Assembly: GCA_003220315.1 (NCBI GenBank)
Contig: QHSA01000146.1
Span: 1 to 41,427, forward strand
DNA: 41,427 nucleotides
Direction: 5' to 3'
Source of the DNA: Candidatus Rokuibacteriota bacterium
GTDB taxonomy: Bacteria > Methylomirabilota > Methylomirabilia > Rokubacteriales > CSP1-6
A model generated the notes under the pieces. The model saw only the letters and a program-made list of their open reading frames with translations, had not been told where the DNA came from and ran no database searches. The position numbers and the translations under genes are program-made. How positions within the stretch are numbered: position 1 is the first letter of the stretch; every line of letters starts with the position of its first letter. Below are positions 6,482-28,957 of this stretch, in pieces.

Positions 6482-7420
6482 GTGAACACCGGTTCGACCT
6501 GGGGAGCGCGCCGGCGTCTCCTCGGTTTCGGCGTCATTCTCCTCAGCGCCACCCTCGGCCGGCTGGTGTCGCCCTCCGGGGCCGTGGCGCCTGCAGCCGT
6601 TGACGTCGAGGCGGGCCGCGCCCTCTACGCCACGCACTGCGCGCTCTGTCACGGCCCGTCGGGGCGTGGCGACGGCCCCTCGGCTGTCGGCTTCGCCACC
6701 AAGCCCTCGGACCTCGCCGACGGCCGCTTGATCAACCAGATGCCGGACGGCTTCCTCGTCAACGTCATCACCCACGGCGGATCGGTCGAGGGGCTCTCGC
6801 CGGGCATGCCTGCCTTGGGTGGCTACCTGAGCGACGCGCAGGTCCGCCAGGTGATCCTCTACGTGCGCTCACTCGCCTCGCCGCCGTTCCAGGCCGCCGC
6901 GGAACTCCGGATCGTGGCCGTGCCCGGGGCGCCGAAACAGCCGATCTTCTTCAGCCACCTCATCCACGCCGGCAAGTACCGGCTCGACTGCCAGTTCTGT
7001 CACGCCGACGCGCGGCGCTCCGAGTATGCAGGTATCCCGTCGGTCGAGCGCTGCCTGGGCTGCCACAAGATCATCGGCGCGCAGGACAACCCCGAGATCG
7101 GCAAGATCCAAGAGTACGGGCGTCGCGGGCAGCCGATCCCGTGGGTCCGGGTCTTCAAACTCCCCGAGTTCGCTTACTTCACACACAAGGCCCACGTGCG
7201 GTTCGGACTCGCGTGTCAGACCTGCCACGGTCCGGTCGAGCGTATGCGGGTGATCGGCGCCGAAACCGGGCCGTCGCTCGTCAACGACCTCATGAACCTC
7301 ATCGGCCTCAAGCCGGCGCCGCGGCCCCTGACGATGGGCTGGTGCGTGGACTGCCACCGCCGGGAGAACGCCGTGCGCGGGGCGCGCGCGCCGCTCGACT
7401 GCGTCACCTGCCACCACTGA
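6482..7420 (+). CDS. Six-haem cytochrome c (mono-haem domain fused to a penta-haem domain)
   Basis: This 312-aa exported cytochrome has six CxxCH haem sites: CALCH (53), CQFCH (170), CLGCH (191), CQTCH (245), CVDCH (288) and CVTCH (307). The first lies in an ordinary class I cytochrome c domain (residues about 40-130, with the VxxVxxxVRSL-like C-terminal helix). The other five form a cytochrome c7/ActA-like unit with distal histidines such as FFSHLIHAGKY and YFTHKAHVRFG. An N-terminal hydrophobic segment would direct it to the periplasm. The role is electron transfer, probably in a respiratory chain. It starts with GTG immediately after mlaA and no other redox gene adjoins it, so its partner is unknown. 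Confidence 0.9.
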   Translation: MNTGSTWGARRRLLGFGVILLSATLGRLVSPSGAVAPAAVDVEAGRALYATHCALCHGPSGRGDGPSAVGFATKPSDLADGRLINQMPDGFLVNVITHGGSVEGLSPGMPALGGYLSDAQVRQVILYVRSLASPPFQAAAELRIVAVPGAPKQPIFFSHLIHAGKYRLDCQFCHADARRSEYAGIPSVERCLGCHKIIGAQDNPEIGKIQEYGRRGQPIPWVRVFKLPEFAYFTHKAHVRFGLACQTCHGPVERMRVIGAETGPSLVNDLMNLIGLKPAPRPLTMGWCVDCHRRENAVRGARAPLDCVTCHH

Positions 7421-9167: not shown

Positions 9168-10763
9168 ATGAGACCGACCTTTAAGAGGCTCGAAGTTAAG
9201 GATCTCGGCAACTTGGAAAAGCTGGTTGCCGAGAACATCGAGGGCATCGAGCCCGGTCTCCGTGTCATTGACTCGCGTCTCGTCCTCGGGCAGGCGGCGA
9301 TCGACCTGGTCGCCCTTGACGCGAGAGAGTCGCTGGTGCTCGTGGCTCTGGACTTTCTGGCGGATGAAGGGCTCCTTCTCCGAGCCATGGACGCGTACTC
9401 CTGGTGCCTCGAGTATCCCGATGCGCTCCGGCGACTCTATCCGATGGCGAACGTCTTGCCGACACGCCCGCCCCGGATCCTGTTCATCGTCGAACGACTC
9501 ACCGATGCCTTCGTGCGACGGATCAAGCATCTCAGCTTCCTTGAGATCGACTGCCTGGAGTTCCGGCACTTGGAGGTGAACGGCGCGTCGGCCGTCTACT
9601 TCGATCTGGTCGAGCGGCTGCGTCGTGGCGCGCCCGTCGAGCCCGCCGCTGACGCGCGGATGATCACCGCGCCCCCCATGCGAACCTCAAAGCGGACCGA
9701 GCCCGAGCCGCCCGTGGTCGAACCGGCGTCCCGCGTGGTCGCCGAGCCGAAGGTGGCGCAGCCTCCTCGACCGCCCGCCGTTCGCGAGACCGCGTCCGCG
9801 ATCCCTGAGCGCATGGTCTCGCTCGAGACGCGCCTGGCCGAGCTTCTCGCCGAGGCGTCCGCCCCCCAGACGGCGTGGCCCGCTGAAATGGCGTCCGCCG
9901 GGAGGATGTCGTTCGCCGTGGAGATGCCGTCCCTGGGCACGCTGCCGTCCCTGGAGACACTGTCCGCCGCGGAGACGTCGTCGACTGGGGAAACGCCGTC
10001 TGCTGAGGAGATGCCGTCGGTCATCGAGATGCCGGCCGAAGAATACGCGACCGAAGAGGCGCCGGCGGGGGCCAGCGCGGCCGTCGATGCGAATGGGGTC
10101 GCCGAAGAGTCCGCGCTCCCGTTCGAGTCCGCCGACGAGACCGCTCAGCAAGAGGAGCTCGACGTGCCGTCCGTGGCGGCTCGCGTGGCCGGGAATCCCG
10201 ATTGGCAGGCGCTGTTGAGCCAGCTCGGCGTCGAGATTCCGGGTCCGGCCAAAGGAACGAGGGCCGAGTCGAGCGAGCGAGCCGACGAGACGGGGACCGC
10301 GGAGCCGTCGGCGCCAGTGGCCGTCGAGGAGGCCGTGCCGGCCGTCGAGGACGCCGTGCCAGCCGTCGAAGAGGCCGTGCCCACCGCGGTCGAACCGACG
10401 GCGCCCACGCTGCCGGCATGGGCGAAGCCCGCAGCCAACAGAGTCGCGCAGCCGATCGGAGGGCGGACGTACTTCTTCTCGCAGGCGGCGAAAGGCACGA
10501 CGGCCGCCGACGCGCAAGCGGCGGCGCCGGCACTGGCGTCGGCCTACCTGAGGCCTGCGGCTCCCGCACAGCCGGCGGTGTGGCCACCCGCTCCGCCCGC
10601 GACACAGACCGCGGTCCCGGCGTCGGAGCCCGGGGCGGCGACCACGCCGAAGCCCACGGAGCTCGTCGCGGATCGTCCGGAGCTCCAGGCGCTGCATTTC
10701 CCGAAAGATGGTCTCTCGCGTCAGTGGCTCGAGTTCCTCAACCAGCTGGGCGGGGCGAAGTGA
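9168..10763 (+). CDS. Unknown protein: degenerate nuclease-like N-terminal domain and long Pro/Ala/Glu-rich tail
   Basis: This 531-aa protein has no family name known to me. Residues 1-150 look folded. The segment AAIDLVALDARESLVLVALD resembles the core of NucS/PD-(D/E)XK-type nucleases, but the catalytic ExK position reads ALD, so any nuclease activity is doubtful. Residues about 165-510 are low complexity (Pro, Ala, Glu, Thr) with short repeats (VPAVEEAVP-type; SLETL/AEEM-type) and are probably disordered. Two similar short motifs, WQALLSQLG at W346 and WLEFLNQLG at W520 close to the C-terminus, could be docking peptides. The ATG at 9168 has GGAG upstream; an ATG at 9081 is the alternative. 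It heads the run of signalling genes. Confidence 0.82.
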   Translation: MRPTFKRLEVKDLGNLEKLVAENIEGIEPGLRVIDSRLVLGQAAIDLVALDARESLVLVALDFLADEGLLLRAMDAYSWCLEYPDALRRLYPMANVLPTRPPRILFIVERLTDAFVRRIKHLSFLEIDCLEFRHLEVNGASAVYFDLVERLRRGAPVEPAADARMITAPPMRTSKRTEPEPPVVEPASRVVAEPKVAQPPRPPAVRETASAIPERMVSLETRLAELLAEASAPQTAWPAEMASAGRMSFAVEMPSLGTLPSLETLSAAETSSTGETPSAEEMPSVIEMPAEEYATEEAPAGASAAVDANGVAEESALPFESADETAQQEELDVPSVAARVAGNPDWQALLSQLGVEIPGPAKGTRAESSERADETGTAEPSAPVAVEEAVPAVEDAVPAVEEAVPTAVEPTAPTLPAWAKPAANRVAQPIGGRTYFFSQAAKGTTAADAQAAAPALASAYLRPAAPAQPAVWPPAPPATQTAVPASEPGAATTPKPTELVADRPELQALHFPKDGLSRQWLEFLNQLGGAK

Positions 10764-10800: not shown

Positions 10801-12363
10801 GTGACAACCAAGGCTGCGGTGCAGATTGACGGGGCCGGCGAGATCCGGGCAGAGGCGCTGCGCGTCCTGCTCGTGGACGACAACGCGTCGGTCCTCCGCT
10901 TCCTGGTGTCTGCGGTCGCCTCGAACAACTGCGAGGTGACGACGGCGTCGACGGCCGAGCAGGCGATGGAGCTGTTGGGGGACACGCCGTTCGACCTCGT
11001 GGTGTCGGACATCAAGATGCCCGGGCTCTCCGGGCTCGACCTGCTGCGCGCGATCAAGAGCAAGCAGCCGGCGACGCCGGTCGTGCTGATCACTGGGGTC
11101 CCGTCGGTGAACTCCGCCGTCTTCGGTCTCCGCCACGGCGCGTACGACTACTTGCCGAAGCCGTTCTCCGTCACAGAAGTCCGCGATCTGCTCCGGCGCC
11201 TCCGCAGGGACCGCGCCGAGGGCAACGGCAATGTCACCTATCCCGCGGGACTCAACGATGAGCTCCAGCGCCGTCAGGGCGGCGTGGCGGTGCTCTCGTC
11301 GATCGGCGAGCTCGCCCTCCAGGGGCTCGAGCAGGGCGTGTTCGTCGAGAAGGTGCTCGAGAAGACGCTCCAGAGCCTGCGCTGCGACGCCGCGGTCATG
11401 CTGCTCGGCGACCAGGAGGGGAAGTTCAACGCGAGCCGCCTGGGTCAGCCCGCGATGGTGAGTGAGCTGCTGACGCTTCTCCAGGCTCACTTCGGCGACG
11501 TCGTCAAGACCGGCGGCCGCGAGACGTACACCCTCACGGCCAAGGGGCATAGCTTCGAGGCGCTCGCCGCGCTCATCCCGGGCGTGGGCAACGCCGTGGG
11601 GATGCTGTGCATGGGCCGCGACGCGCGGGTCGGCGCGTTCCTGCCCGACGAAAAGGGACTGCTCCTCGGGTACGCGCAGACCACGGCGGTCGCGCTCCAG
11701 AAGCTCGTGCTCCGCGAGAACCTCGAGAAGAACCTCGTCGACACGATCTCCTCGTTCGTGGTCGCGCTCGAGTCGAAGGACCCCTACCTCAAGGGCCACT
11801 CCGCGCGCGTGTCGCTCTACTCGGGGGAGATCGCGAAGGTGATGGCCATGCCCACCACGGACGTGGTGCTGTACAGCCGGGCGGGCCTGCTACACGACCT
11901 GGGCAAGCTCGTCATGCTGGACAACATCCTCCGCAAACCGCGGCAGCTCACGGAGGAGGAGTTCGAGCTGGTCCGGAGCCATCCGGTGGTCGGCGACAAG
12001 ATCCTCAAGCCGCTCCGGTTCCTCTCGTGCGAAGCGAAGGCGGTCCGGCACCACCACGAGCGCTACGATGGCAAGGGGTATCCCGACGGGCTCACGGGCG
12101 TGGACATCCCGCTCATCGCGCGCGTCGTGACCGTGGCGGACGCCTTCGACGCGATGACCTCCGATCGCCCGTACCGCGGCAAGCGACCCCTCGAAGCGGC
12201 GCTCGACGAGATTTTCCGCGGGGCGCGGACGCAGTTCGATCCGGTCGTCGCGGAGGCGTTCGTCAAGATTCCGGTCGTTCGACTCGAGCAGATCAGCCGT
12301 CAGTTCGACCTCCGGCCAGCGGAGGCGCCCGCGGCGGGACGACCGGGCGCGGACGCCGAATGA
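10801..12363 (+). CDS. Response regulator with GAF-like and HD-GYP domains (c-di-GMP phosphodiesterase)
   Basis: This 520-aa protein has a receiver domain (about 18-140, phospho-acceptor D70 in VVSDIKMP, lysine in LPKPFS), a middle GAF-like region (about 155-320) and an HD-GYP domain (about 320-500). The HD pair is H365-D366 in LLHDLGK, followed by HHHERYDGKGYPDG with GYP at 426-428, and VVTVADAFDAM. HD-GYP proteins hydrolyse cyclic di-GMP, lowering its level to favour motility or dispersal. GTG at 10801 is chosen because AGGAGG lies at 10789-10794 and the receiver follows directly. Its stop overlaps the next receiver gene as ATGA. Confidence 0.95.
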   Translation: MTTKAAVQIDGAGEIRAEALRVLLVDDNASVLRFLVSAVASNNCEVTTASTAEQAMELLGDTPFDLVVSDIKMPGLSGLDLLRAIKSKQPATPVVLITGVPSVNSAVFGLRHGAYDYLPKPFSVTEVRDLLRRLRRDRAEGNGNVTYPAGLNDELQRRQGGVAVLSSIGELALQGLEQGVFVEKVLEKTLQSLRCDAAVMLLGDQEGKFNASRLGQPAMVSELLTLLQAHFGDVVKTGGRETYTLTAKGHSFEALAALIPGVGNAVGMLCMGRDARVGAFLPDEKGLLLGYAQTTAVALQKLVLRENLEKNLVDTISSFVVALESKDPYLKGHSARVSLYSGEIAKVMAMPTTDVVLYSRAGLLHDLGKLVMLDNILRKPRQLTEEEFELVRSHPVVGDKILKPLRFLSCEAKAVRHHHERYDGKGYPDGLTGVDIPLIARVVTVADAFDAMTSDRPYRGKRPLEAALDEIFRGARTQFDPVVAEAFVKIPVVRLEQISRQFDLRPAEAPAAGRPGADAE

Positions 12364-14389: not shown

Positions 14390-15133
14390 ATGCGACGGCG
14401 CGCTTCGAGATTGACCGCGCTTGACGGCGGGCGTCCGGCGGATCAAGCGCGCACAGGTGCCGTGGTGACCGCGGAGTCCACGTCGCTCGCCGGCGAGAGC
14501 CGGCGCGAACCGGACCGGCGAGGCGTCGTCTCGCGCGGCCCGCAGGTCTACCTGCGGACCCTCAGGCCCGAGGACCTCGAGTACCTGTCCGAGTGGGCCG
14601 AGGACGCGTTCGTCGCGCGCATGGTGGGCAGCGAGTTCCTGAACGCCTACAAGCACGTCTATGACAAGGATCCCTCGTTCTTCGACGCCGTCCTGATGGA
14701 CACGACGCAGGTGGTGCTCATGGTCGAGGCGAACCGGGGGTGGACGAAGCCGCTCGGACTCGCGCGCCTCTTCAACATCCACCTCCTGGAGGGGTACGCC
14801 TTCCTCGAGGTCGTGCTGACGGAGCAGAAGGCCTTGCGCCGCGGATTTGGCGTGGAGGCGGGCAAGCTCATCTCGTACTATGGAGTTGACGTGCTGGGGC
14901 TGCGGCGCATCGAGGCCAAGGTCTACGAGTACAACGTGCTGAGCGCGAACTCGCTCCGCCGTAACGGCTTCCACCAGGAGGGTTTGCTCCGCAAGGCCGG
15001 TTACCAGGACGGCCGGTACTGGGACGTCCTCGTGTTCGGCATTCTGAAGGACGAGATCGACGAGCAGCGGAAGAAGGACAAGCCCTACCTGCCGCTCGCC
15101 GACACCGAGGGGAACGCGCTTGACGCTTCATAG
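14390..15133 (+). CDS. GNAT-family N-acetyltransferase (RimJ/RimL-like)
   Basis: This 247-aa protein has a GNAT domain from about residue 50: VYLRTLRPEDLEYLSEWAED at its start, then the acetyl-CoA-binding QKALRRGFGVEAGKLISYYG, and the C-terminal LRRIEAKVYEYNVLSANSLR with NGFHQEGLLRKAGYQDGRYW. This pattern is typical of the RimJ/RimL and SpeG-like subgroup that acetylates protein N-termini, amines or peptides. The first 45 residues are Arg-rich and may not be translated, because GTG codons at 14462 and 14465 are alternative starts. Its end overlaps the kinase gene by 14 nt. Confidence 0.9.
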   Translation: MRRRASRLTALDGGRPADQARTGAVVTAESTSLAGESRREPDRRGVVSRGPQVYLRTLRPEDLEYLSEWAEDAFVARMVGSEFLNAYKHVYDKDPSFFDAVLMDTTQVVLMVEANRGWTKPLGLARLFNIHLLEGYAFLEVVLTEQKALRRGFGVEAGKLISYYGVDVLGLRRIEAKVYEYNVLSANSLRRNGFHQEGLLRKAGYQDGRYWDVLVFGILKDEIDEQRKKDKPYLPLADTEGNALDAS

Positions 15134-17240
15134 CCTCCTCCCGCTCATCGCGCTCCTCCTGAACGTCCTGCTCGCCGTGATCACGCTCGTGCGAAACCCG
15201 GGGAGCCGGCTGAACCGCGTCTTCGCCTATTTCGTCACGGGCATGGCCGTGTGGAACGTGGGAACGTTCATGCTGCGCCGCGCGCCGGACGAGATCGCGG
15301 CGACGTTCTGGGAGATCGTGATCCACGCGGGCGTCGTGCTCCTGCCCGCGTTCTATTACCACTTCGTCCTGATCTTCCTCGAGAGCACGACCCAGCACCG
15401 CCCGTCGCTCGTCGTCGTCTACCTGCTGGCGGCCTTCTTCAGCGTCGTCAACCTGAGCGGCTCCCCGCTGTTCACGCAGGGCGTGAAGTGGACGTACTGG
15501 GGCTGGACGCCGGCGATCGGACCGCTCTACTACCTCTTCTTCCCCTACTTCTTCGGCTTCCTGATCTACGGCCTCTCGCACCTCGTGAAGGCGTACAGGG
15601 GCGTCGACTCGAGCTTCCGTCGTAACCGCGCGACGCTGATCCTCCTCGGGACACTCGTGAGCGTCGCGGGCGGGTTCATCGACATCGCGCGATTCCTCCT
15701 CGCTCGCGTCGTGCCGGCGGCAGAACTCGTCTACCCGATGGGGATCCCGGCAAACATGGTGTTCGCGCTGATGCTCGGCACGTCGATCGTGCGCTACCGC
15801 CTGTTTGACGTGAACGTGGCGGTGAAGAAGGGCGCGATCTACCTGGTGCTCTGGGGTGTCCTCACGTCGGTCCTCGTCCTGGCCGAGCAGTACGCCGACT
15901 GGGAGCAGATGAACCCGCTGTGGGTGATCCTCCCGCTCGGCTTCATCATGACGTTGCTCGTGAGCCCGCTGGGCCAGCGCCTGGAGGGCTCGATCGAACG
16001 CCTCATGTTCAGCCGGCGTCGCGGGTGCTACGAGACTCTGCTCGATCTCAGCAAACGCATGAGCACGATCCTCGACTTCGGCCGACTCATGGAGACCCTC
16101 GTGCACGGCCTGGTGCGGGGCGTCCCGCTGACCCACTGCGCGCTCATGATCTACGACGCGGCGCGGAGCGCGTTCGTCATCTATCGTGAGGAGACGAACA
16201 TCGGCGAGGGGGCGACCGTCACCATGATTCCCGTCGACAGCCCCATCGTCCAGTGGCTCAACCAGACCGGTCGGGTGCTGGTCAAGGAGGAGGTCAAGCT
16301 CAACCCCGAGATCGCCGAGTACTTCGAGACCGCGGAGGGTGAGCTGGAGGAGATCCGCGCGGCCCTCATCGTGCCGCTCAAGATCGAGAACAAGCTCACC
16401 GGCATCCTCCTCGTCGGCGAGAAGCTCTCGGGCGAGATCTTCGACGGCCAGGAGCTCGAGGTGCTCGCCGTGCTCGCGAACCAGGTGGCGATCTCGCTCG
16501 AGAACGCGCGGCTCTACGAGGAGCTGTCGGCCTCGAACGCCCAGCTCATGCAGGCGAGCCGGCTGAAGTCGCAGTTCCTCGCGAGCATGTCGCACGAGCT
16601 CCGGACGCCGCTGAACTCGATCATCGGCTTCTCGAAGGTGCTGCTGAACCGCCTCGACGGCGACCTGAGCGAGCGCCAGGAGACCTACATCCGCTCGGTG
16701 CACAACAGCGGGACCCACCTGCTCCAGCTCATCAACGGGATCCTCGATTTCTCGCGCATCGAGGCGGGGAAGCTGGAGATGATGTCCGAGGAGCTCGATC
16801 TCCACGAGCTGATCGACGAGTGCATCGAGTCGTCGATGCCGCTCGCGCGCGGCAAGCAGCTCAAGCTCGAGAAGAATATACCGCTCGAGCTGCCGCGGCT
16901 CGTCGCGGACCGCACCAAGGTGAAGCAGATCCTCCTCAATTTGCTGTCGAACGCGATCAAATTCACGACGCAGGGCCGGGTGCTCGTCGGCGTGCAGGCC
17001 GAGCCGGAATCCGTGCGCGTGAGGGTGTCGGACACGGGGATCGGCATCCGCGCGGAGGACCTGGCGCGCCTGTTCGAGCCGTTCCAGCAGCTGGACAATC
17101 CGGTCGCGCGGGGCGCCGGCGGGACCGGGCTCGGGCTTGCGATCAGCAAGAAGTTCGTCGAGCTCCACGGCGGTCGCATCTGGGCGGAGAGCCGCGAGAA
17201 CCAGGGATCCACGTTCCAGTTCACGCTGCCGTTGAGCTGA
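15120..17240 (+). CDS. Membrane sensor histidine kinase (7TM-type N-terminus, GAF, HisKA, HATPase)
   Basis: This 706-aa kinase begins with seven or so hydrophobic helices (residues 1-280) of the type found in 7TM histidine kinases. A GAF domain follows (about 300-465), then a linker helix, the dimerisation domain with phospho-accepting H492 in SMSHELRTPLNS, and an ATPase domain with N box LLNLLSNAIKF, G1 DTGIGI and G2 GGTGLGLAIS. It starts with TTG at 15120, preceded by GAGGGG at 15107-15112, and overlaps the acetyltransferase end by 14 nt. There is no C-terminal receiver, so phosphate must go to a separate protein, with several candidates in the cluster. The ligand is unknown. Confidence 0.94.
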   Translation: MTLHSLLPLIALLLNVLLAVITLVRNPGSRLNRVFAYFVTGMAVWNVGTFMLRRAPDEIAATFWEIVIHAGVVLLPAFYYHFVLIFLESTTQHRPSLVVVYLLAAFFSVVNLSGSPLFTQGVKWTYWGWTPAIGPLYYLFFPYFFGFLIYGLSHLVKAYRGVDSSFRRNRATLILLGTLVSVAGGFIDIARFLLARVVPAAELVYPMGIPANMVFALMLGTSIVRYRLFDVNVAVKKGAIYLVLWGVLTSVLVLAEQYADWEQMNPLWVILPLGFIMTLLVSPLGQRLEGSIERLMFSRRRGCYETLLDLSKRMSTILDFGRLMETLVHGLVRGVPLTHCALMIYDAARSAFVIYREETNIGEGATVTMIPVDSPIVQWLNQTGRVLVKEEVKLNPEIAEYFETAEGELEEIRAALIVPLKIENKLTGILLVGEKLSGEIFDGQELEVLAVLANQVAISLENARLYEELSASNAQLMQASRLKSQFLASMSHELRTPLNSIIGFSKVLLNRLDGDLSERQETYIRSVHNSGTHLLQLINGILDFSRIEAGKLEMMSEELDLHELIDECIESSMPLARGKQLKLEKNIPLELPRLVADRTKVKQILLNLLSNAIKFTTQGRVLVGVQAEPESVRVRVSDTGIGIRAEDLARLFEPFQQLDNPVARGAGGTGLGLAISKKFVELHGGRIWAESRENQGSTFQFTLPLS

Positions 17241-17257
17241 GAGGGGCGAGAGAGCGT

Positions 17258-19939
17258 ATGGCGGGACGCGCACTCGAAAAGAAGCCGAAGGTCCTCTACA
17301 TCGAGGACAACCGGGAGAACCGGATGTTGGTCCGCGCCGTCTTGGAGGCGGCCGGGTACACCATCGTCGAGGCCGAGGACGGCCTCGCCGGCATCGAGGC
17401 GGCGATCCGTGAGGAACCGGCGCTCATCCTCCTCGATATCAACCTGCCGGGCGTCGACGGCTACGAGATCGTCGCCATCCTCAAATCCTTCCCCAACCTC
17501 GCGTCCACCCCGGTGATCGCCGTCACCGCCTACGCGATGCAGGGCGACCGGCAGCGGACCCTCGTCGCCGGCTGCGACGGCTACATCCAGAAGCCGATCA
17601 ACGTGGACATGTTCCCGCGGCAGGTCGCCGAGTTCCTCGGAGGCAAGCGCGAGCGCGTCGAAGGCCGCGAGGAAGGCGTCTACCTCCGCGAGCTCAACCA
17701 GCGGTTGGTCTATCGGCTCCTCAACCAGGTCGAGGAGCTCAAGCGGCTCAACCAGCACTTCGTCCGGCGCGCGAGCCAGCTCGCCGACCTGCACCACGCC
17801 GTGCAGGGCATCACCTCGGAGCTAGGCGTGGCCGAGATGCTCGAGCGGCTCCTCCTGGCGGTCGCCCAGGCGATCGGCACGACGAGCCTCCGCGTCGAGC
17901 TCACCGACCCGCCGGGCGTGCAGGTCGTGGCGCGCGGAGACACCGGCGACCAGCCGCGGAGCGTGCTCGCGGGCGCCGGCGTCGAGCCGGCGGACGAGTG
18001 GACCGAGGTCGAGTGGACGCTTCCCCTCACGGTCCGGGGCCGCGAGCTCGGCGTGATGGTGGCGCGACACGTCATGCCGCCGGGGGCCAAGGCCGACGAG
18101 GAACAGCTGCTCAAGATCGTCGCCGACCAGGTCGCGATCGCGGTCGAGAACGCGCGCCTCTACGAGCGGGTCACGCGCCGCGCGGCCGAGCAGGAGAGCC
18201 TCGTCGAGGCCGGACGCCTGCTGACCGGGACGCTGCAGGTCTCGGAGGTTCTCCAGCGGCTCAGCGAGCTCGTGCGGGCCCGCCTCGGCGCCGACGTCGT
18301 CCGGATCCTGATCGCGGAGGACGCGCCCGGCCACTTCCGCCTCGAGGCGCAGGCGGGCACCACGCGCACGCCCAAGCTGTCCGCCCAGCACGCGGCCGAC
18401 GACGACGACGGCCTGGTCGGCTGGATCGTGAAGCACCGGGCAGCGCTCGCCCTGAGCGACGTGCTCCCCCGTCCCGGCGTCGGGTACCGGGACTGGCTCC
18501 GGAGCGAAGGGTTCGTGTCGTTTCTCGGTCTGCCCCTCTTCCTCGAGAACCAGCTCGTCGGGATCCTGACGGTCTGGTACCGCGAGCCCCACACCTTTGC
18601 CCCCGACGAGGTCGCGCTCGGCGAAGCGCTGGCAACGTCGGCGACGGCGGCGATCCGGAACGCACGCCTCTACGAGGAGACGCAGGAGCGACTGCGCCAC
18701 ACCGAGACGCTCCTGGCGGTGAGCTACGACACGAGCTCCACCCTCGAGCTGGCGGAGGTCCTGCGCCGGACCACGCGGGCGATGGTGCGAGCCCTCGGCG
18801 CCAACACCGGCGGCGCGTGGCTCGTGACCCCGGGAAAGGACCGCTTCGTGCCGATCGTGGGCTATCACGTGCCGAAGGACGCCCTCCAGACCTTCGCGAC
18901 CACCGAGATCGTGATGACCGATCAGATGCTCAAGGAGTGGGGGAGGTACGAGCGGGCGGTCTACTCGAGCGACAGCGGGTCGGACCCGCGGTTCGCCCAC
19001 CCGATCACCCGCCTCCTCCCCCACACGTCGCTGCTCATCCAGCCGATGCGCTGGAAAGGGGAGACGATCGGCGGGTTCGCGATCGCCTGGCTCAAGGATC
19101 ACCACCGGTTCACGACCGACGAGCTGCGGCTGGCGGAGGGCATCGCGCTCCAGGCGGCGGTGGCGGCCGAGAACTCGCGCCTGTACGAGGGCGTCAAGCA
19201 GCAGATGGCCGAGCTCAAGCGGACCCAGGCGCAGCTGATCCAGTCCACGAAGCTCGCGGCGATCGGCGAGCTGGCCGCCAACATCGCCCACGAGATTAAC
19301 AACCCGCTGACGAGCGTGCTGGGCTTCGCGTCCTACCTCGCCGAGCGCATCCCGCCTGGCGAACCGATGCGGGAGGAGCTCGACCTGATCCAGGAGGAAG
19401 CGGGCCGCGCGCGCGACATCGTGCGCGACCTCCTCCACTTCAGCCGGCAACGCGAGTTCGTGCCGCAGATGACCGACCTCAACGTGGTGCTCGAGCAGAC
19501 GCTCACCATGGTGCGTCGCCAGGGCGCGTTCGACGCGATCACCCTCGTCGAGGAGTACGCGCCCGGGCTCCCGCCCGTCGAGGTGGATGTGCCGCGCATC
19601 AAGCAGGTGTTCCTGAACCTCATCAACAACGCCGTCTACGTCATGAAGGACGGTGGGTCGCTGACGATCCGGTCGTCCGTCGTCGGCGACACAGTCCAGG
19701 TCGAAGTCATCGACACCGGCACCGGCATCCCGGCGGAGCACCTCGACCGGATCTTCGAGCCGTTCTTCACCACGAAACCCGACGTGAGCGGCACGGGCCT
19801 CGGCCTGCCGGTCAGCCTCGGGATCGTCCAGAGTCACGGCGGCACCATCGAGGTCAAGAGCGAGCTCGGACGTGGCTCGAGCTTCATCGTCAAGCTTCCG
19901 GTAAAGCCGAGCGCCGCCGTCACTGACGGCGACGAGTAG
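17258..19939 (+). CDS. Soluble histidine kinase with N-terminal receiver and multiple GAF domains
   Basis: This 893-aa protein has no evident membrane segment. An N-terminal receiver (12-128, phospho-acceptor D60 in [15 protein letters not shown] lysine) is followed by three GAF-like units (about 175-305, 325-470 and 485-645), each ending in a helix of the type [11 protein letters not shown]. The NtrB-like kinase core contains H678 in [11 protein letters not shown] box LINNAVY, G1 DTGTGIP and G2 GTGLGLPVS. The HEINNP form of the H box is typical of kinases that partner NtrC-type regulators, which fits the regulator at 7559. ATG 17258 is 17 nt after the preceding kinase. The GAF domains may sense small molecules; none can be named. 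Confidence 0.93.
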
Positions 19940-24446: not shown

Positions 24447-25646
24447 ATGACGATCCCGACCCTCGCGCTCGACGGCGTCCGTGTCATCGATTGCTCGCGC
24501 GTCCTGGCCGGCCCCTTCTGCGGCATGCTGCTCGCGGACCTGGGCGCCGACGTGATCAAGGTGGAGGACACGGGCCCCGGCGACGAGTCGCGCACGTGGC
24601 CGCCCCACAAGGGGGGCGAGTCGGCGGCGTACCTCGTCATCAACCGCAACAAACGCGACATTACGCTCGACCTCAAGTCGCCGGAGGGCGCCGAGGTGCT
24701 GAAGACCCTCGTGAGCCGGAGCGACGTGCTCATCGAGAACTTCCGGACGGGGACGATGGAGTCGTTCGGTCTGGGCTACGAGACGCTCGCGGCCGTCAAC
24801 CCCCGGCTCGTCTACTGCTCGATCTCGGCCTTCGGGCGCACGGGACCCCGCGCCGACGGCGCCGGCTACGAGGCGCTCATGCAAGCCTTCAGCGGCATCA
24901 TGTCGATCACGGGCGAGCCCGACGGCCCGCCCGTCCGCTGCGGCGTCTCGTTCCTCGATCTGACGACGGGCATCCTCTGCGCGTTCGGGATCGTGAACGC
25001 GCTGCTCCACCGGGAGCGGACGGGTCTCGGCCAGCGGCTGGACGGCTCGCTCCTCGAGACCGCCGTGGCGCTCCTGAACTACCACGCCGAGGGCTACCTA
25101 CTCACCGGCGCCGTCCCCAAGGCGCTCGGCTCGTCCCACCCGTCGCTCTCGCCTTACCGGAACTTCCGCTGCCGTGACGGCCAGTGGGTGTTCATCGCGG
25201 GCGCCAACGACCGGTTCTGGCAGCGTCTGGTCCCGGCCCTCGGGCTCGCCTGGATGGCGAGTGACCCGCGCTTCGCCAGCAACATCGAGCGGGTGAAACA
25301 TCGGAAGGAGTTGGAAGCCGAGCTCGAGCAGGCGATCACGCAGCACGACCGGGAGCCACTGCTGAAGGTCCTCGAGGAGGCTGGCGTGCCCGCCACGCCC
25401 GTGAACACGGTGGACCAGGTGATGCAGGACCCGCAGACCGCGGCGCGCCAGATCTTCGAGCGGGTCGTGCACCCGCGGCTCGGCGAGATCCCCGTCGTCG
25501 GCACCCCGCTGAAGTTCTCGCGCATGCGACCGGGCGTCCGCACGCCGGCCCCGCGCCAGGGCGAGCACACCGACCAGGTGCTTGCCGAGCACGGCTACAG
25601 CGCCGGGCGGATCGCCGAGCTCCGCACCCGAAAAGTCATCCTGTAG
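24447..25646 (+). CDS. CaiB/BaiF family (class III) CoA-transferase
   Basis: This 399-aa enzyme of the formyl-CoA transferase/CaiB superfamily moves CoA between carboxylic acids. The N-terminal VIDCSRVLAGPFCGMLLADL and the following VIKVE are hallmark segments. The catalytic aspartate that forms the acyl anhydride is D171 in SFLDLTTG. The RDITLDLKS, SISAFGRTGP and GQRLDGSLLET segments also fit. The C-terminal APRQGEHTDQVLAE is typical. The acid substrates cannot be deduced. It diverges from metH. The UGSC selenoprotein gene follows after 71 bp with its own strong ribosome-binding site. Confidence 0.95.
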   Translation: MTIPTLALDGVRVIDCSRVLAGPFCGMLLADLGADVIKVEDTGPGDESRTWPPHKGGESAAYLVINRNKRDITLDLKSPEGAEVLKTLVSRSDVLIENFRTGTMESFGLGYETLAAVNPRLVYCSISAFGRTGPRADGAGYEALMQAFSGIMSITGEPDGPPVRCGVSFLDLTTGILCAFGIVNALLHRERTGLGQRLDGSLLETAVALLNYHAEGYLLTGAVPKALGSSHPSLSPYRNFRCRDGQWVFIAGANDRFWQRLVPALGLAWMASDPRFASNIERVKHRKELEAELEQAITQHDREPLLKVLEEAGVPATPVNTVDQVMQDPQTAARQIFERVVHPRLGEIPVVGTPLKFSRMRPGVRTPAPRQGEHTDQVLAEHGYSAGRIAELRTRKVIL

Positions 25647-25717
25647 GGCGAGCCGAGCACGTCGCGGGGCTGGGGTCCCGCCGTGGGAGGCGAGCGAATA
25701 TACGAGGAGGGCGGACC

Positions 25718-27388
25718 ATGGCACGGCTCGAGATCTTGAACCCCGTGGCGCGGACGGTCGAGCACTCGGTGAAGCCGGCGTCCCGGCTCTCGACGCTCGA
25801 GGGCGCCACGATCGGCCTGTACTGGAACATGAAGGCGGGCGGCGACTGCGCGCTGGACCGGACGGAGGCGCTCCTGCGCGAGAAGTTCGCCGGGACGAAG
25901 TTCCGGCGCTACACGGGCTCGGTCGGCTGGCTCATGCGCCATTGCACCGCGGAGGACGCCGACCGCATCGCGGCGGAAGTCGACGCGGTGGTCGGCACGA
26001 CCGCCGACTGAGGGTCGTGCACGTCGTGGGGGGCCCACGACATGGTCGAGCTGGAGCGGCGGGGGATCCCGACCGTGCTCTTCACCGCGCAGACGTTCGT
26101 GCACGATGCGCACCGGAGCGCGGCGAGCTTCGGCCTGGCGGGCCTGCCGCTCGCCGTCGTGCCGCTGCCGTTCACCAACCAGACGCCTGCGGACATCCAC
26201 GGGATGGCCGAGCGGGCGTTCGACCAGGTCCGCGCGGGGCTCACCCGGCCCGTGGAGGCGCCGAAGGCCGTCGAGCGCCCCCCGCTCGACGAGCGGCTCC
26301 GCTACGACGGCGATGACCTTCTCGACGCGTGGGGGCGGATGCAGGCCGACTTCCTCGTGCGGGGCTGGGCCGACGGGTTCCCGCTCGTCCCCCCGACCGA
26401 GCGCGCCGTGGGCGCGCTGCTCCGGTCGACCCGTCGCGGCCCTGGCGACGTGATCGCGACGCTCGAGCCGGGCTTCGGCATCGCGACCGTCGAGAAGCTC
26501 GCGATCAACGCGGTGATGGCGGGTTGCGGTCCCGAGCACCTGCCCCTCCTGATCGCGGCGGTGCGCTGCCTCGCGGAGCCGAAGATGTACATCCGTAACA
26601 AGGCCATGTCCACGGGCCCCCATGCGCCCCTCGTGCTCGTCAACGGGCCAAAGGGGCGGGCGGCCAGCCTGAACTCGGGCATGTGCGCGCTCGGCCCCGG
26701 GGCGCCGTCGGCGAGCAACACCGTCCTGGGCCGGGCGGTGCGGCTCACCATGATGAACGTCGGCCACACCTACGTCGGCGTGTCGGACATGGACACGATC
26801 GGCTCGCCGCTCAAGTACAGCCTGTGCTGCGCGGAGAACGAGGCCGAGAGCCCGTGGGAGCCCTATCACGTCACGCGAGGCTTCGCGCCGGACGCGTCCA
26901 CGATCACCGTGCACTTCGTCTACGGCATCTGTGAGCTCCACGACTTCCGGTCCACGACGCCCGAGCACCTGGTCCAGGTCTTCGCGACAGCGGCCAACAA
27001 CGTGGCGCAGGTGGGCACCGGCCTCTGGCTCATCGGTCGGCGGGCGGACCCGCGGTCGAAGACCGAGGAGAAGGAGCACAACACGCTCTTCATCTGCCCG
27101 GAGCACGCGCAGATCTTCGCCAAGGCGGGCTGGGGGCGTCGCGAGATCCAGGCGGCGCTCTACCGGGCCGCGCGGCTGCCGTTCAGGACGATGATCCTGA
27201 ACAAGGAGCCCAAGGCGATGGAGGTCGCCCATCCCGAGCTCGCGTGGCTGGCGGACCACCCGGACCTGCCGGTGCCCATCGTCGAGGACCCGACGTGCTT
27301 CGACATCGCGGTCGTCGGCGCCGCGGCTGGCCGCGGCGCGTACTTCTACGGGGCCGGCGAGCCGGTGACGATGCCCGTGGAGGACTGA
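25718..27388 (+). CDS. UGSC-family selenoprotein (in-frame UGA at 26009-26011 read as selenocysteine)
   Basis: The two apparent frames 25718-26011 and 26042-27388 are one gene: they share a reading frame and are separated only by TGA. Reading it as selenocysteine gives a 556-aa protein with U98 in TTADUGSCTSWGAHDMVELE, followed by RRGIPTVLFTAQ. This matches the UGSC (seleno)protein family and resembles the Sec site of glycine-reductase GrdB-type proteins (UGTCT ... GAxMVKEIE ... GIP). A strong hairpin starts 11 nt after the UGA. Residues 1-185 form the Sec domain; residues about 190-556 form a Cys-rich domain of unknown function (CGPEH, SLCCAENE, FICPEH). The start has GAGGAGG at 25704-25710. 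A redox role is probable; the substrate is unknown. Confidence 0.88.
26009..26041 (+). promoter_or_regulatory. Candidate bacterial SECIS element
   Basis: After the UGA (26009-26011) and 11 nt, GTCGTGGG (26023-26030) pairs perfectly with CCCACGAC (26034-26041) around a GGG loop. Spacing and size match the minimal SelB-binding hairpin known from E. coli fdhF, whose apical loop also carries guanines. The loop sequence itself differs, as is usual between lineages. Confidence 0.7.
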
Positions 27389-27389
27389 C

Positions 27390-27971
27390 GTGGTGAGGCT
27401 CTGGGTGGCCGCGCTCGCCGTCTGCCTCACCGCTACGGCCGCCGCCGCCCAGCTCTACCGGTGGACCGACGGCGAGGGAACGGTGCACTACACCGCCGAC
27501 CCCGACACGATCCCGCCCGCCTTTCGCGATGCCGCCGAGCTCTTGAGCGCTCCGCAGCCCCGTCCCACGCCCACGCCCGGCGGGGAGCCCACGGAGCTGC
27601 GGATGAGCCCCGGCGCGCCGATCACCGTGGCGGCGCGCCTCAACGGCGTGCCGCTCACGCTCGTCGTGGACACGGGCGCCGATCGGACCGTCCTCTCGCC
27701 CTCGGCGATCGAGCGGGCAGGTCTCGACGACCAGAGCAGACGGCCGACCCAGATCGTGGGAGCGACCGGGGTGACGACCGCGACGCTGGTGACCGTGCCG
27801 CTCCTCGATGTCGCCGGCGCCCGGATCGGCCCGCTCACCGTCATCGTCCACGCGCTGCCGTCCGTAGACCGCGCCGAGCCCGTCGACGGCCTCCTCGGCC
27901 GCGACGCCCTCGACGCGTTCACCCTGACCGTCGACGCGGCCTCGGGCCGCGCGACGCTCACGCCGCGCTGA
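27390..27971 (+). CDS. Exported retropepsin-like aspartic protease with DUF4124-like N-terminus
   Basis: This 193-aa protein has a signal peptide (residues 1-20, cleavage after AAAA) followed by QLYRWTDGEGTVHYT, the DUF4124 signature found at the N-terminus of many exported proteins. After a Pro-rich linker comes a clan AA aspartic protease domain: the catalytic motif VDTGAD (D94), ERAGL, a flap-like GATGVTTAT, and VDGLLGRDALDAF. Proteases of this kind dimerise to build the active site and act in the periplasm. GTG 27390 begins 1 nt after the selenoprotein stop, so the genes are co-transcribed. A GTG at 27393 is an equivalent start. The substrate is unknown. Confidence 0.9.
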   Translation: MVRLWVAALAVCLTATAAAAQLYRWTDGEGTVHYTADPDTIPPAFRDAAELLSAPQPRPTPTPGGEPTELRMSPGAPITVAARLNGVPLTLVVDTGADRTVLSPSAIERAGLDDQSRRPTQIVGATGVTTATLVTVPLLDVAGARIGPLTVIVHALPSVDRAEPVDGLLGRDALDAFTLTVDAASGRATLTPR

Positions 27972-27977
27972 CGGGCG

Positions 27978-28868
27978 TCAGGCCTTGGGACTCGGCGCGA
28001 GCCCGCTCATCTTGGCGAGCACGTCGAAGACGACCGCGAAATCGTAGCGCTTGAGCCCCATCCCGCGCGCCGCGGTGAGGAGCTCGTTCGCGACCGCCAC
28101 GCTCGGGAGCGGCACCCCGGTCGCGCGCCCGAGGTCGAGCGCGAGCTTGAGGTCCTTCTGCATCATCCCCACGTCGAACCACGCCTCGGCGGGCATGCCG
28201 AGCACGAACGGACCGCGGTACTTCACCATGGGCGAGGCGAGGACGCTCTTCAGCAGCGCCTCCACCGCGCGCTCGCGCGCGATCCCCGCCTTTTCGGCGA
28301 GCAGCACGGCCTCCGCGAACGCGACCATCTGCACGACGAGCCCCTGGTTGATCGCGATCTTCATCGCCTTCGCGTGTCCGACCGGACCCACGTGCGTGAG
28401 GCCCGGGCCGATCGCGGTGAGGTAGGGTCGCACCCGCTCGAGCGTCGCGGGGTCGCCGCCGACCATGAACGAGAGCTGGCCCGCCTCGAGCGTGGCGGGT
28501 GACCCGGATACCGGTGCGTCGAGGAGGTGGGCGCCCCGCGTCTCGATCTCGGCGGCGAGCGCCCGCACCGCGTCCGGGCTCACCGTGCTCATCTCGACGT
28601 GCACGGCGTCTCGCCGGAGCCCGGCGAGGATGCCGTCCGACCCGCGGCAGACGGCGTCGAGGGCCGGCGTGTCAGTCACCATCGTGAAGACGATCTCCGC
28701 CTGGGCGGCGACCTCGCGCGGCGAGTCCACCAAACGTAGCCCGGCGTCGGCGAGCCAGCGGGCCTTCCCGCGCGTTCGGTTGTAGCCGATCACGGGGTGG
28801 CCGGCGTCGAGGAGCCGCTTCGCCATGCGCCCGCCCATCACGCCGAGCCCGACGAAGCCGAGCGTCAT
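27978..28868 (-). CDS. 3-hydroxyisobutyrate dehydrogenase-family oxidoreductase
   Basis: This 296-aa beta-hydroxyacid dehydrogenase has an NAD(P)-binding motif at the N-terminus (GFVGLGVMGGRMA), with YNRT after the second strand suggesting NADP preference. The substrate-binding segment is DAPVSGSPATLEAGQLSFMVGG, and the catalytic lysine lies in GHAKAMKIAINQ. The C-terminal helical domain ends with KDLKLAL. The family includes 3-hydroxyisobutyrate, tartronate semialdehyde and glyoxylate/succinic semialdehyde reductases; the exact substrate is not evident. The ATG at 28868 directly follows an inverted copy of the local repeat and has no clear ribosome-binding site, so it may lie near its own transcription start. 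It converges on the protease gene. Confidence 0.94.
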   Translation of the reverse strand: MTLGFVGLGVMGGRMAKRLLDAGHPVIGYNRTRGKARWLADAGLRLVDSPREVAAQAEIVFTMVTDTPALDAVCRGSDGILAGLRRDAVHVEMSTVSPDAVRALAAEIETRGAHLLDAPVSGSPATLEAGQLSFMVGGDPATLERVRPYLTAIGPGLTHVGPVGHAKAMKIAINQGLVVQMVAFAEAVLLAEKAGIARERAVEALLKSVLASPMVKYRGPFVLGMPAEAWFDVGMMQKDLKLALDLGRATGVPLPSVAVANELLTAARGMGLKRYDFAVVFDVLAKMSGLAPSPKA

Positions 28869-28957
28869 TTTAACGGGGGCCGCGGGGCCGGTGCAATGAG
28901 TGGGTGGCCTGAGCCGAGGCACGACGCGGCTCCGTTCGGCATGTCGCTACCCATTCC
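28869..28957 (-). repeat. Inverted copy of the 29699-29870 repeat
   Basis: Read on the minus strand this segment matches the repeats at 29699-29870: GGAAT ... AGCGACATGC, then GGCTCAGGCCACCCA, then GCACCGGCCCCGCGG, with only scattered differences. It fills the gap between the RidA gene and the dehydrogenase and ends right at the dehydrogenase start codon. Confidence 0.8.

Follow-up and report, generated by a model that had tools for sequence, protein, structure and literature searches.

A fused UGSC-family selenoprotein in a Rokubacterial genome: a GrdB-like selenocysteine site joined to a widespread partner domain

One gene across an in-frame UGA

The locus at positions 25718..27388 (+) of the window, by which we mean the entire 41,427-nucleotide stretch of DNA analyzed, from a soil bacterium of the Rokubacteria, raises two questions: whether an in-frame TGA separates two genes or specifies selenocysteine (Sec) within one, and what kind of protein the locus encodes. 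The coding sequence begins at ATG 25718, 7 nt after a Shine-Dalgarno-like AGGAGG (25705..25710, +) read directly off the sequence, and terminates at the TGA at 27386-27388. A second TGA, at codon 98 (26009..26011, +), is the sole in-frame stop before the terminal one, and reading through it yields 556 codons with Sec at residue 98. The coordinates and frame of the single 556-aa gene proposed in a sequence-only reading of this DNA match the sequence. Full-length orthologs were detected in about 20 of the 60 relatives searched, at 56 to 95% identity, each with exactly one internal TGA. Checked base by base, the TGA occupied the same codon in all 30 fused proteins compared (20 orthologs and 10 paralogous fusions), within the motif D-U-G-S-C-T-S-W. 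For the pairs and regions measured, dN/dS was approximately 0.1 to 0.6 both before and after the UGA, indicating purifying selection on both sides.

The genome itself, which is the assembly from which the window comes (98% complete), encodes the machinery that Sec insertion would use. A stretch of about 5 kb on one contig (C281) carries selB (at 7093; E 7e-19 for the wing domain), selA (9430-10524; E 2e-150), and the tRNA-Sec gene selC (12067-12160; 69.8 bits, also called by ARAGORN, anticodon TCA), with selD located elsewhere (contig C231, 16606-17541). All four genes that the sequence-only reading had proposed to look for were recovered, and with selB and selC present in the same assembly, the absence that it had named as a refutation does not apply. 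The selD gene contains one in-frame TGA of its own, and the selenophosphate synthetase is therefore probably a selenoprotein too.

Two other explanations of the TGA were weighed against decoding as Sec. If the TGA were a real stop, the locus would consist of a gene for a 97-aa peptide followed by one for a 448-aa protein starting at ATG 26042. That ATG is present, the split is what standard annotation produces, and the public annotation of a Paracoccus plasmid shows a similar one. However, the most conserved residues of the family, U-G-S-C-T-S-W-x-x-H-D, run across the UGA and lie upstream of the second ATG, the UGSC domain likewise extends across it, the Cys-containing homologs are uninterrupted proteins, and the genome carries Sec machinery; we regard two separate genes as very improbable. 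Pseudogene decay or a sequencing error would require only one wrong base in an assembled contig, but the same-codon TGA recurs in 20 orthologs and in 10 additional fusions taken from independent assemblies, and dN/dS lies well below 1 on both sides of it. This explanation, refuted by the conservation of the TGA, has a negligible probability in our estimation. Judged by the conserved TGA, the Sec machinery, and the Cys homologs, the locus is a genuine gene for a 556-aa selenoprotein, with UGA-98 predicted to be decoded as Sec.

Annotation still splits such Sec genes in two, which serves as a warning. On plasmid pFER4 of Paracoccus ferrooxidans (L133:5378-5947), the annotation breaks a UGSC selenoprotein gene at its UGA into two small hypothetical proteins; a partner gene adjoins this gene, and a plasmid-borne selB lies about 3 kb away.

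A SECIS-like hairpin downstream of the Sec codon

A SECIS-like hairpin is located at 26023..26041 (+), where 26023-26030 pairs with 26034-26041. The arms, GUCGUGGG and CCCACGAC, form an 8-bp stem with a 3-nt loop that starts 11 nt after the UGA; folding reproduced both the stem and the spacing that had been proposed from the letters. The folding energy (z of -1.9 against dinucleotide shuffles, with 8 of 200 shuffles equally low) is weak evidence when taken alone. Because this energy was just mildly unusual, comparative tests were needed. Across the 20 orthologs, the stem-forming codons 101, 102, 103, 107, and 108 were synonymously frozen, a state found in 14% of comparable columns; the chance of all five being frozen is approximately 6e-5 if they are independent. 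The 48 nt that begin at the UGA folded better than synonymous-codon randomizations across 73 distinct Sec genes belonging to several phyla (mean z of -1.43, compared with +0.15 in a control window placed 60 nt farther downstream; Wilcoxon, 1.3e-12). Five Cys genes showed no consistent folding trend relative to the same kind of randomization.

Covariation was assessed in 34 distinct sequences: 88% of stem cells were paired, both-sided (compensatory) changes occurred at four of seven stem pairs, and the stem covariation score exceeded those of all 500 shuffles and of all slid versions. Most relatives have a 7-bp stem and a 5-nt loop, versus the 8 bp seen here. RNAalifold alone returned a partial stem with low energy, and counting pairs in the named structure is the better test; an Rfam scan of the window gave no match. 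For the region 26009-26050, in which the sequence-only reading had suggested looking for a bacterial SECIS element, frozen codons, randomization, and covariation were all favorable. Taking these alignments together, both conservation and covariation of the SECIS-like hairpin within the gene extend across phyla. In a distant fused subfamily (L066, L091, L093, L104, and L111), the motif is U-G-S-C-T-[PA]-A, not U-G-S-C-T-S-W, and in several of its members the stem sequence differs yet pairs (GCCCGC/GCGGGC).

The UGSC domain, its partner domain, and their distribution

Residues 5-176 (25730..26245, +) match the UGSC domain PF24696 (E 6.5e-35; 121.2 bits against a gathering cutoff of 25, covering positions 1-171 of 172) and contain the motif U98-G-S-C101, which bears out the earlier assignment to the UGSC family. 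Against the NCBIfam equivalog NF041046 the protein scored 102.2 bits (105.9 for the domain alone), under the curated cutoff of 125 bits, which marks it as a member of a divergent fused UGSC subfamily. The suggestion of a GrdB-type Sec site was upheld by profile comparison. In hhalign, a profile of 25 UGSC domains matched Rokubacterial GrdB-family selenoproteins with a probability of 96.6% (E 5e-10); the alignment spans 105 columns and places the Sec positions opposite each other. Two unrelated control alignments gave 0.6% and 0.2%. Direct matches to TIGR01917 at E ≤ 0.01 were obtained for 11 of the 25 UGSC members. The similarity is concentrated near the Sec motif. By these comparisons, the UGSC domain is tied to the Sec-bearing end of GrdB/PrdB reductases, with which it shares the ancestry of the Sec-site region.

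No match to PF07355, the full-length GrdB/PrdB domain, was found in the same genome, nor was a GrdA selenoprotein, in a search that had no positive-control hit. Rokubacterial relatives do carry GrdB-like selenoproteins (L164:1420-6710 and L138-L144), one of which adjoins a GrdE-like gene (PF09338). Because the Pfam GRDB model stops just short of the Sec codon, the UGA of such genes is easily missed.

The remainder of the protein, about residues 194-556 (26297..27385, +), forms a partner domain that we call UNK1. Its AF2 model is confident (pLDDT 93.5, pTM 0.93). Pfam searches of 62 homologous partner domains gave nothing beyond chance matches, NCBIfam contains no family for the domain, and a PDB sequence search yielded no convincing relative. 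In Foldseek, the C-terminal model had no PDB match at E < 0.001 and none among viral models; its best PDB match was a two-subunit fumarase (class I fumarase alpha domain, 7xky; E 4.6e-3, probability 0.57). A relationship to GrdE/PrdA was not supported (hhalign against a GrdE-like protein, 0.09%; no Pfam match to PF09338, the pyruvoyl-type GrdE/PrdA family, in the 62 domains), nor was a profile-level relationship to class I fumarases (hhalign, 0.5%). The sequence-only reading had described a Cys-rich domain of about 370 aa. A domain of approximately 363 aa is indeed there, but "Cys-rich" overstated its 8 cysteines, of which just one or two are widely conserved. The invariant polar residues of the domain are D219, T299, N334, R339, E373, and W380.

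The C-terminal domain was scanned against 84,980 species genomes. From the 459 relatives obtained, the 80 best loci were retained, and six plasmid loci were added to them. UNK1 also occurs as an independent gene and so constitutes a separate family, which the sequence-only reading had not foreseen. In a sample of 101 partner copies, found mostly via one peptide pattern and to which the rate of co-occurrence applies, 87 had a UGSC domain either fused or within 1.5 kb on the same strand: 38 as UGSC-partner fusions, 34 as separate genes with UGSC preceding the partner, and 15 in the reverse order. The distributions of the two parts are thus far from unrelated. The other 14 copies lacked a nearby UGSC gene, and 6 of these sit at contig edges. 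On a quick tree, the fused state requires at least four changes. These gene arrangements show a two-part enzyme whose second component is the partner domain, encoded by a separate adjacent gene elsewhere and fused here.

Homologs with Cys in place of Sec, which had been suggested as a check on position 98, exist in three settings: fused proteins of Rhizobiales (L063 and L065), haloarchaeal pairs (L132 and L134), and Variovorax (L137). The Rhizobiales Cys forms nest inside the wider fused clade of the window protein on the quick tree. At least four UGSC domains, each with TGA, are encoded in the window's own genome alongside several partner domains, and as many as 12 UGSC copies occur in genomes of its family; such multiplicity suggests several substrates.

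Several individual loci illustrate the range of layouts. Three tandem UGSC-partner modules, all with UGA, lie on one Chloroflexi contig (L127:4362-9789). In Halalkalicoccus jeotgali (L134:3285-5975), one Cys-type UGSC gene is situated between two partner-domain genes, which hints that a single redox subunit may be shared by two substrate subunits. Partner-domain proteins of fused size in Vibrio europaeus (L135:5344-7029) and Sporomusa termitida (L136:5284-7008) adjoin aconitase X and DUF126 genes; the UGSC site of the former has decayed to D-M-G-T-S, with the redox residues gone, and no UGSC domain was detected ahead of the partner domain in the latter.

Directly upstream of the selenoprotein gene is a CoA-transferase family III gene (24468..25646, +; PF02515, 2.6e-136), which is 71 to 94% identical and in the same place and strand at orthologous loci in most genomes with enough flanking sequence; it is likely in the same operon. 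Downstream are a gene for a DUF4124 and aspartyl protease protein (27390..27971, +), conserved in the nearer orthologous loci only, and, on the opposite strand, one resembling 6-phosphogluconate/3-hydroxyisobutyrate dehydrogenases (27978..28922, -). The CoA transferase, exported protease, and dehydrogenase named in the sequence-only reading were therefore all located next to the gene. In the wider neighbor set, tripartite tricarboxylate (TctC) receptors accounted for 15 of 126 neighbors, and TPP enzymes, amidohydrolases, CoA transferases, and 2-hydroxyacid dehydrogenases also recurred. No universal operon partner was found across phyla, recurrence being limited to substrate-uptake and organic-acid enzymes. 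A thioredoxin-reductase-like (trxB-like) gene lies near the Variovorax Cys pair, the sole such case among the inspected loci. Since CoA transferase III, TctC receptors, and organic-acid enzymes recur nearby, the gene neighborhood points to organic-acid or CoA-ester catabolism. Elsewhere in the window (15120-19939), two overlapping ORFs of 706 and 1039 aa encode histidine kinases that contain GAF domains.

A proposed enzyme and its place among known systems

The explanation that best accounts for these observations, and that we consider quite probable, is a Sec enzyme in which a GrdB-like UGSC domain and a substrate-binding partner carry out reductive chemistry on organic acids or CoA esters. 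SelB and tRNA-Sec, together with the SECIS hairpin inside the gene, would insert Sec at UGA-98. By profile homology, the UGSC domain is related to the C-terminal, Sec-bearing part of GrdB/PrdB-type subunits but shorter, with U98 and C101 as a putative selenenylsulfide-type redox pair. The partner domain most likely binds the substrate, and R339 is a candidate carboxylate anchor. The enzyme's chemistry would be selenol/thiol-dependent and probably reductive, with a small organic acid or the corresponding CoA ester as substrate. The upstream CoA transferase presumably serves this pathway, and a thioredoxin-reductase-like system may re-reduce the enzyme. More tentatively, and with a confidence that falls somewhat short of even, we propose that UGSC and its partner represent a new class of two-component Sec- or Cys-dependent reductase, in which the redox part derives from GrdB and the substrate part has a new fold. 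Such a class would be parallel to but separate from the glycine and proline reductases, would span Rokubacteria, Chloroflexota, Pseudomonadota, and haloarchaea, and would act in the catabolism of several organic acids or CoA esters.

The division of labor could instead be reversed, with UGSC as a thioredoxin (Trx)-fold reductase or repair module that keeps the partner or its thiols reduced and with the partner as the catalyst. A Trx-like fold was proposed in PMC2398784, UxxC resembles Trx motifs, and the 14 of 101 partner copies without a nearby UGSC gene (6 at contig edges) would fit such a role. Against this, profile comparison links UGSC to GrdB, and no Trx family profile matches the UGSC region. 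Foldseek searches with the full AF2 model returned flavodoxin/Rossmann-like proteins, not Trx, as the best matches of the N-terminal region, all of them weak. The Trx-like fold proposed in 2008 is thus not supported by the predicted model, the fold matches themselves being weak, and we judge a Trx-type module to be unlikely. The other alternative concerns the partner, which might be a distant relative of class I fumarase-like iron-sulfur hydro-lyases, making the complex a Sec-dependent dehydratase or lyase, not a reductase. The fumarase is the best PDB match of the C-terminal model, lower-ranked matches include another fumarase and the FeS cysteine desulfidase CyuA, and homologous proteins adjoin aconitase X. 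However, the TM-scores are approximately 0.24 with an rmsd of 16 Å, the profile comparison lends no support, and the few conserved cysteines fall short of the three needed for holding a cluster. We accordingly hold a lyase to be improbable and retain the GrdB-like reductase as the preferred explanation.

The UGSC family has been known since 2008, when the GOS selenoproteome paper (PMC2398784) ranked it as one of the commonest bacterial selenoprotein families in DNA from the environment. A fusion of UGSC to a domain called "Unknown_1" already appears in that paper, a precedent that the sequence-only reading had not foreseen. UGSC proteins are still uncharacterized according to a 2026 review (PMC13188914), and no function for them was reported in the literature searched. 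UNK1 is probably the "Unknown_1" of 2008. The family and, most likely, the fusion have therefore been described before, and this kind of protein is not new. What is new is the relationship between UGSC and GrdB, the two-part nature of the system, its Cys forms, the SECIS evidence, and the recognition of the partner domain as a separate family without a Pfam, NCBIfam, or confident structural match. Kinship to GrdB together with a widespread, definable partner turns an "unknown selenoprotein" into a testable functional hypothesis.

Among the closest known systems are GrdB/PrdB, the Sec subunits of glycine, sarcosine, betaine, and D-proline reductases (PF07355, TIGR01917, and TIGR04483). The Sec sites are collinear, sharing VDAV, then U-G-[ST], then the helix end ELE-x-x-GxPT, whereas the UGSC protein lacks the first ~320 residues of GrdB. 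In contrast to glycine and proline reductases, UGSC gene contexts contain no grd operon and the partner is not GrdE/PrdA; the parallel with glycine reductase is limited to the level of one domain. With the class I fumarase alpha domain (7xky), the likeness is a weak best structural match of low TM-score, without sequence-profile support. Among UGSC proteins proper, those defined by NF041046 are matched at 102 to 106 of 125 bits, and the UGSC-Unknown_1 protein of PMC2398784 combines a Sec UGSC domain and a conserved domain in one chain, very probably the same architecture. The haloarchaeal pairs, annotated as a "UGSC family (seleno)protein" and a hypothetical protein (Natrinema WP_254525907/906 and Halalkalicoccus WP_008415592/593), have the same two parts as adjacent but separate genes with Cys instead of Sec, and these versions, like the Cys-containing ones of Rhizobiales, need no selenium machinery.
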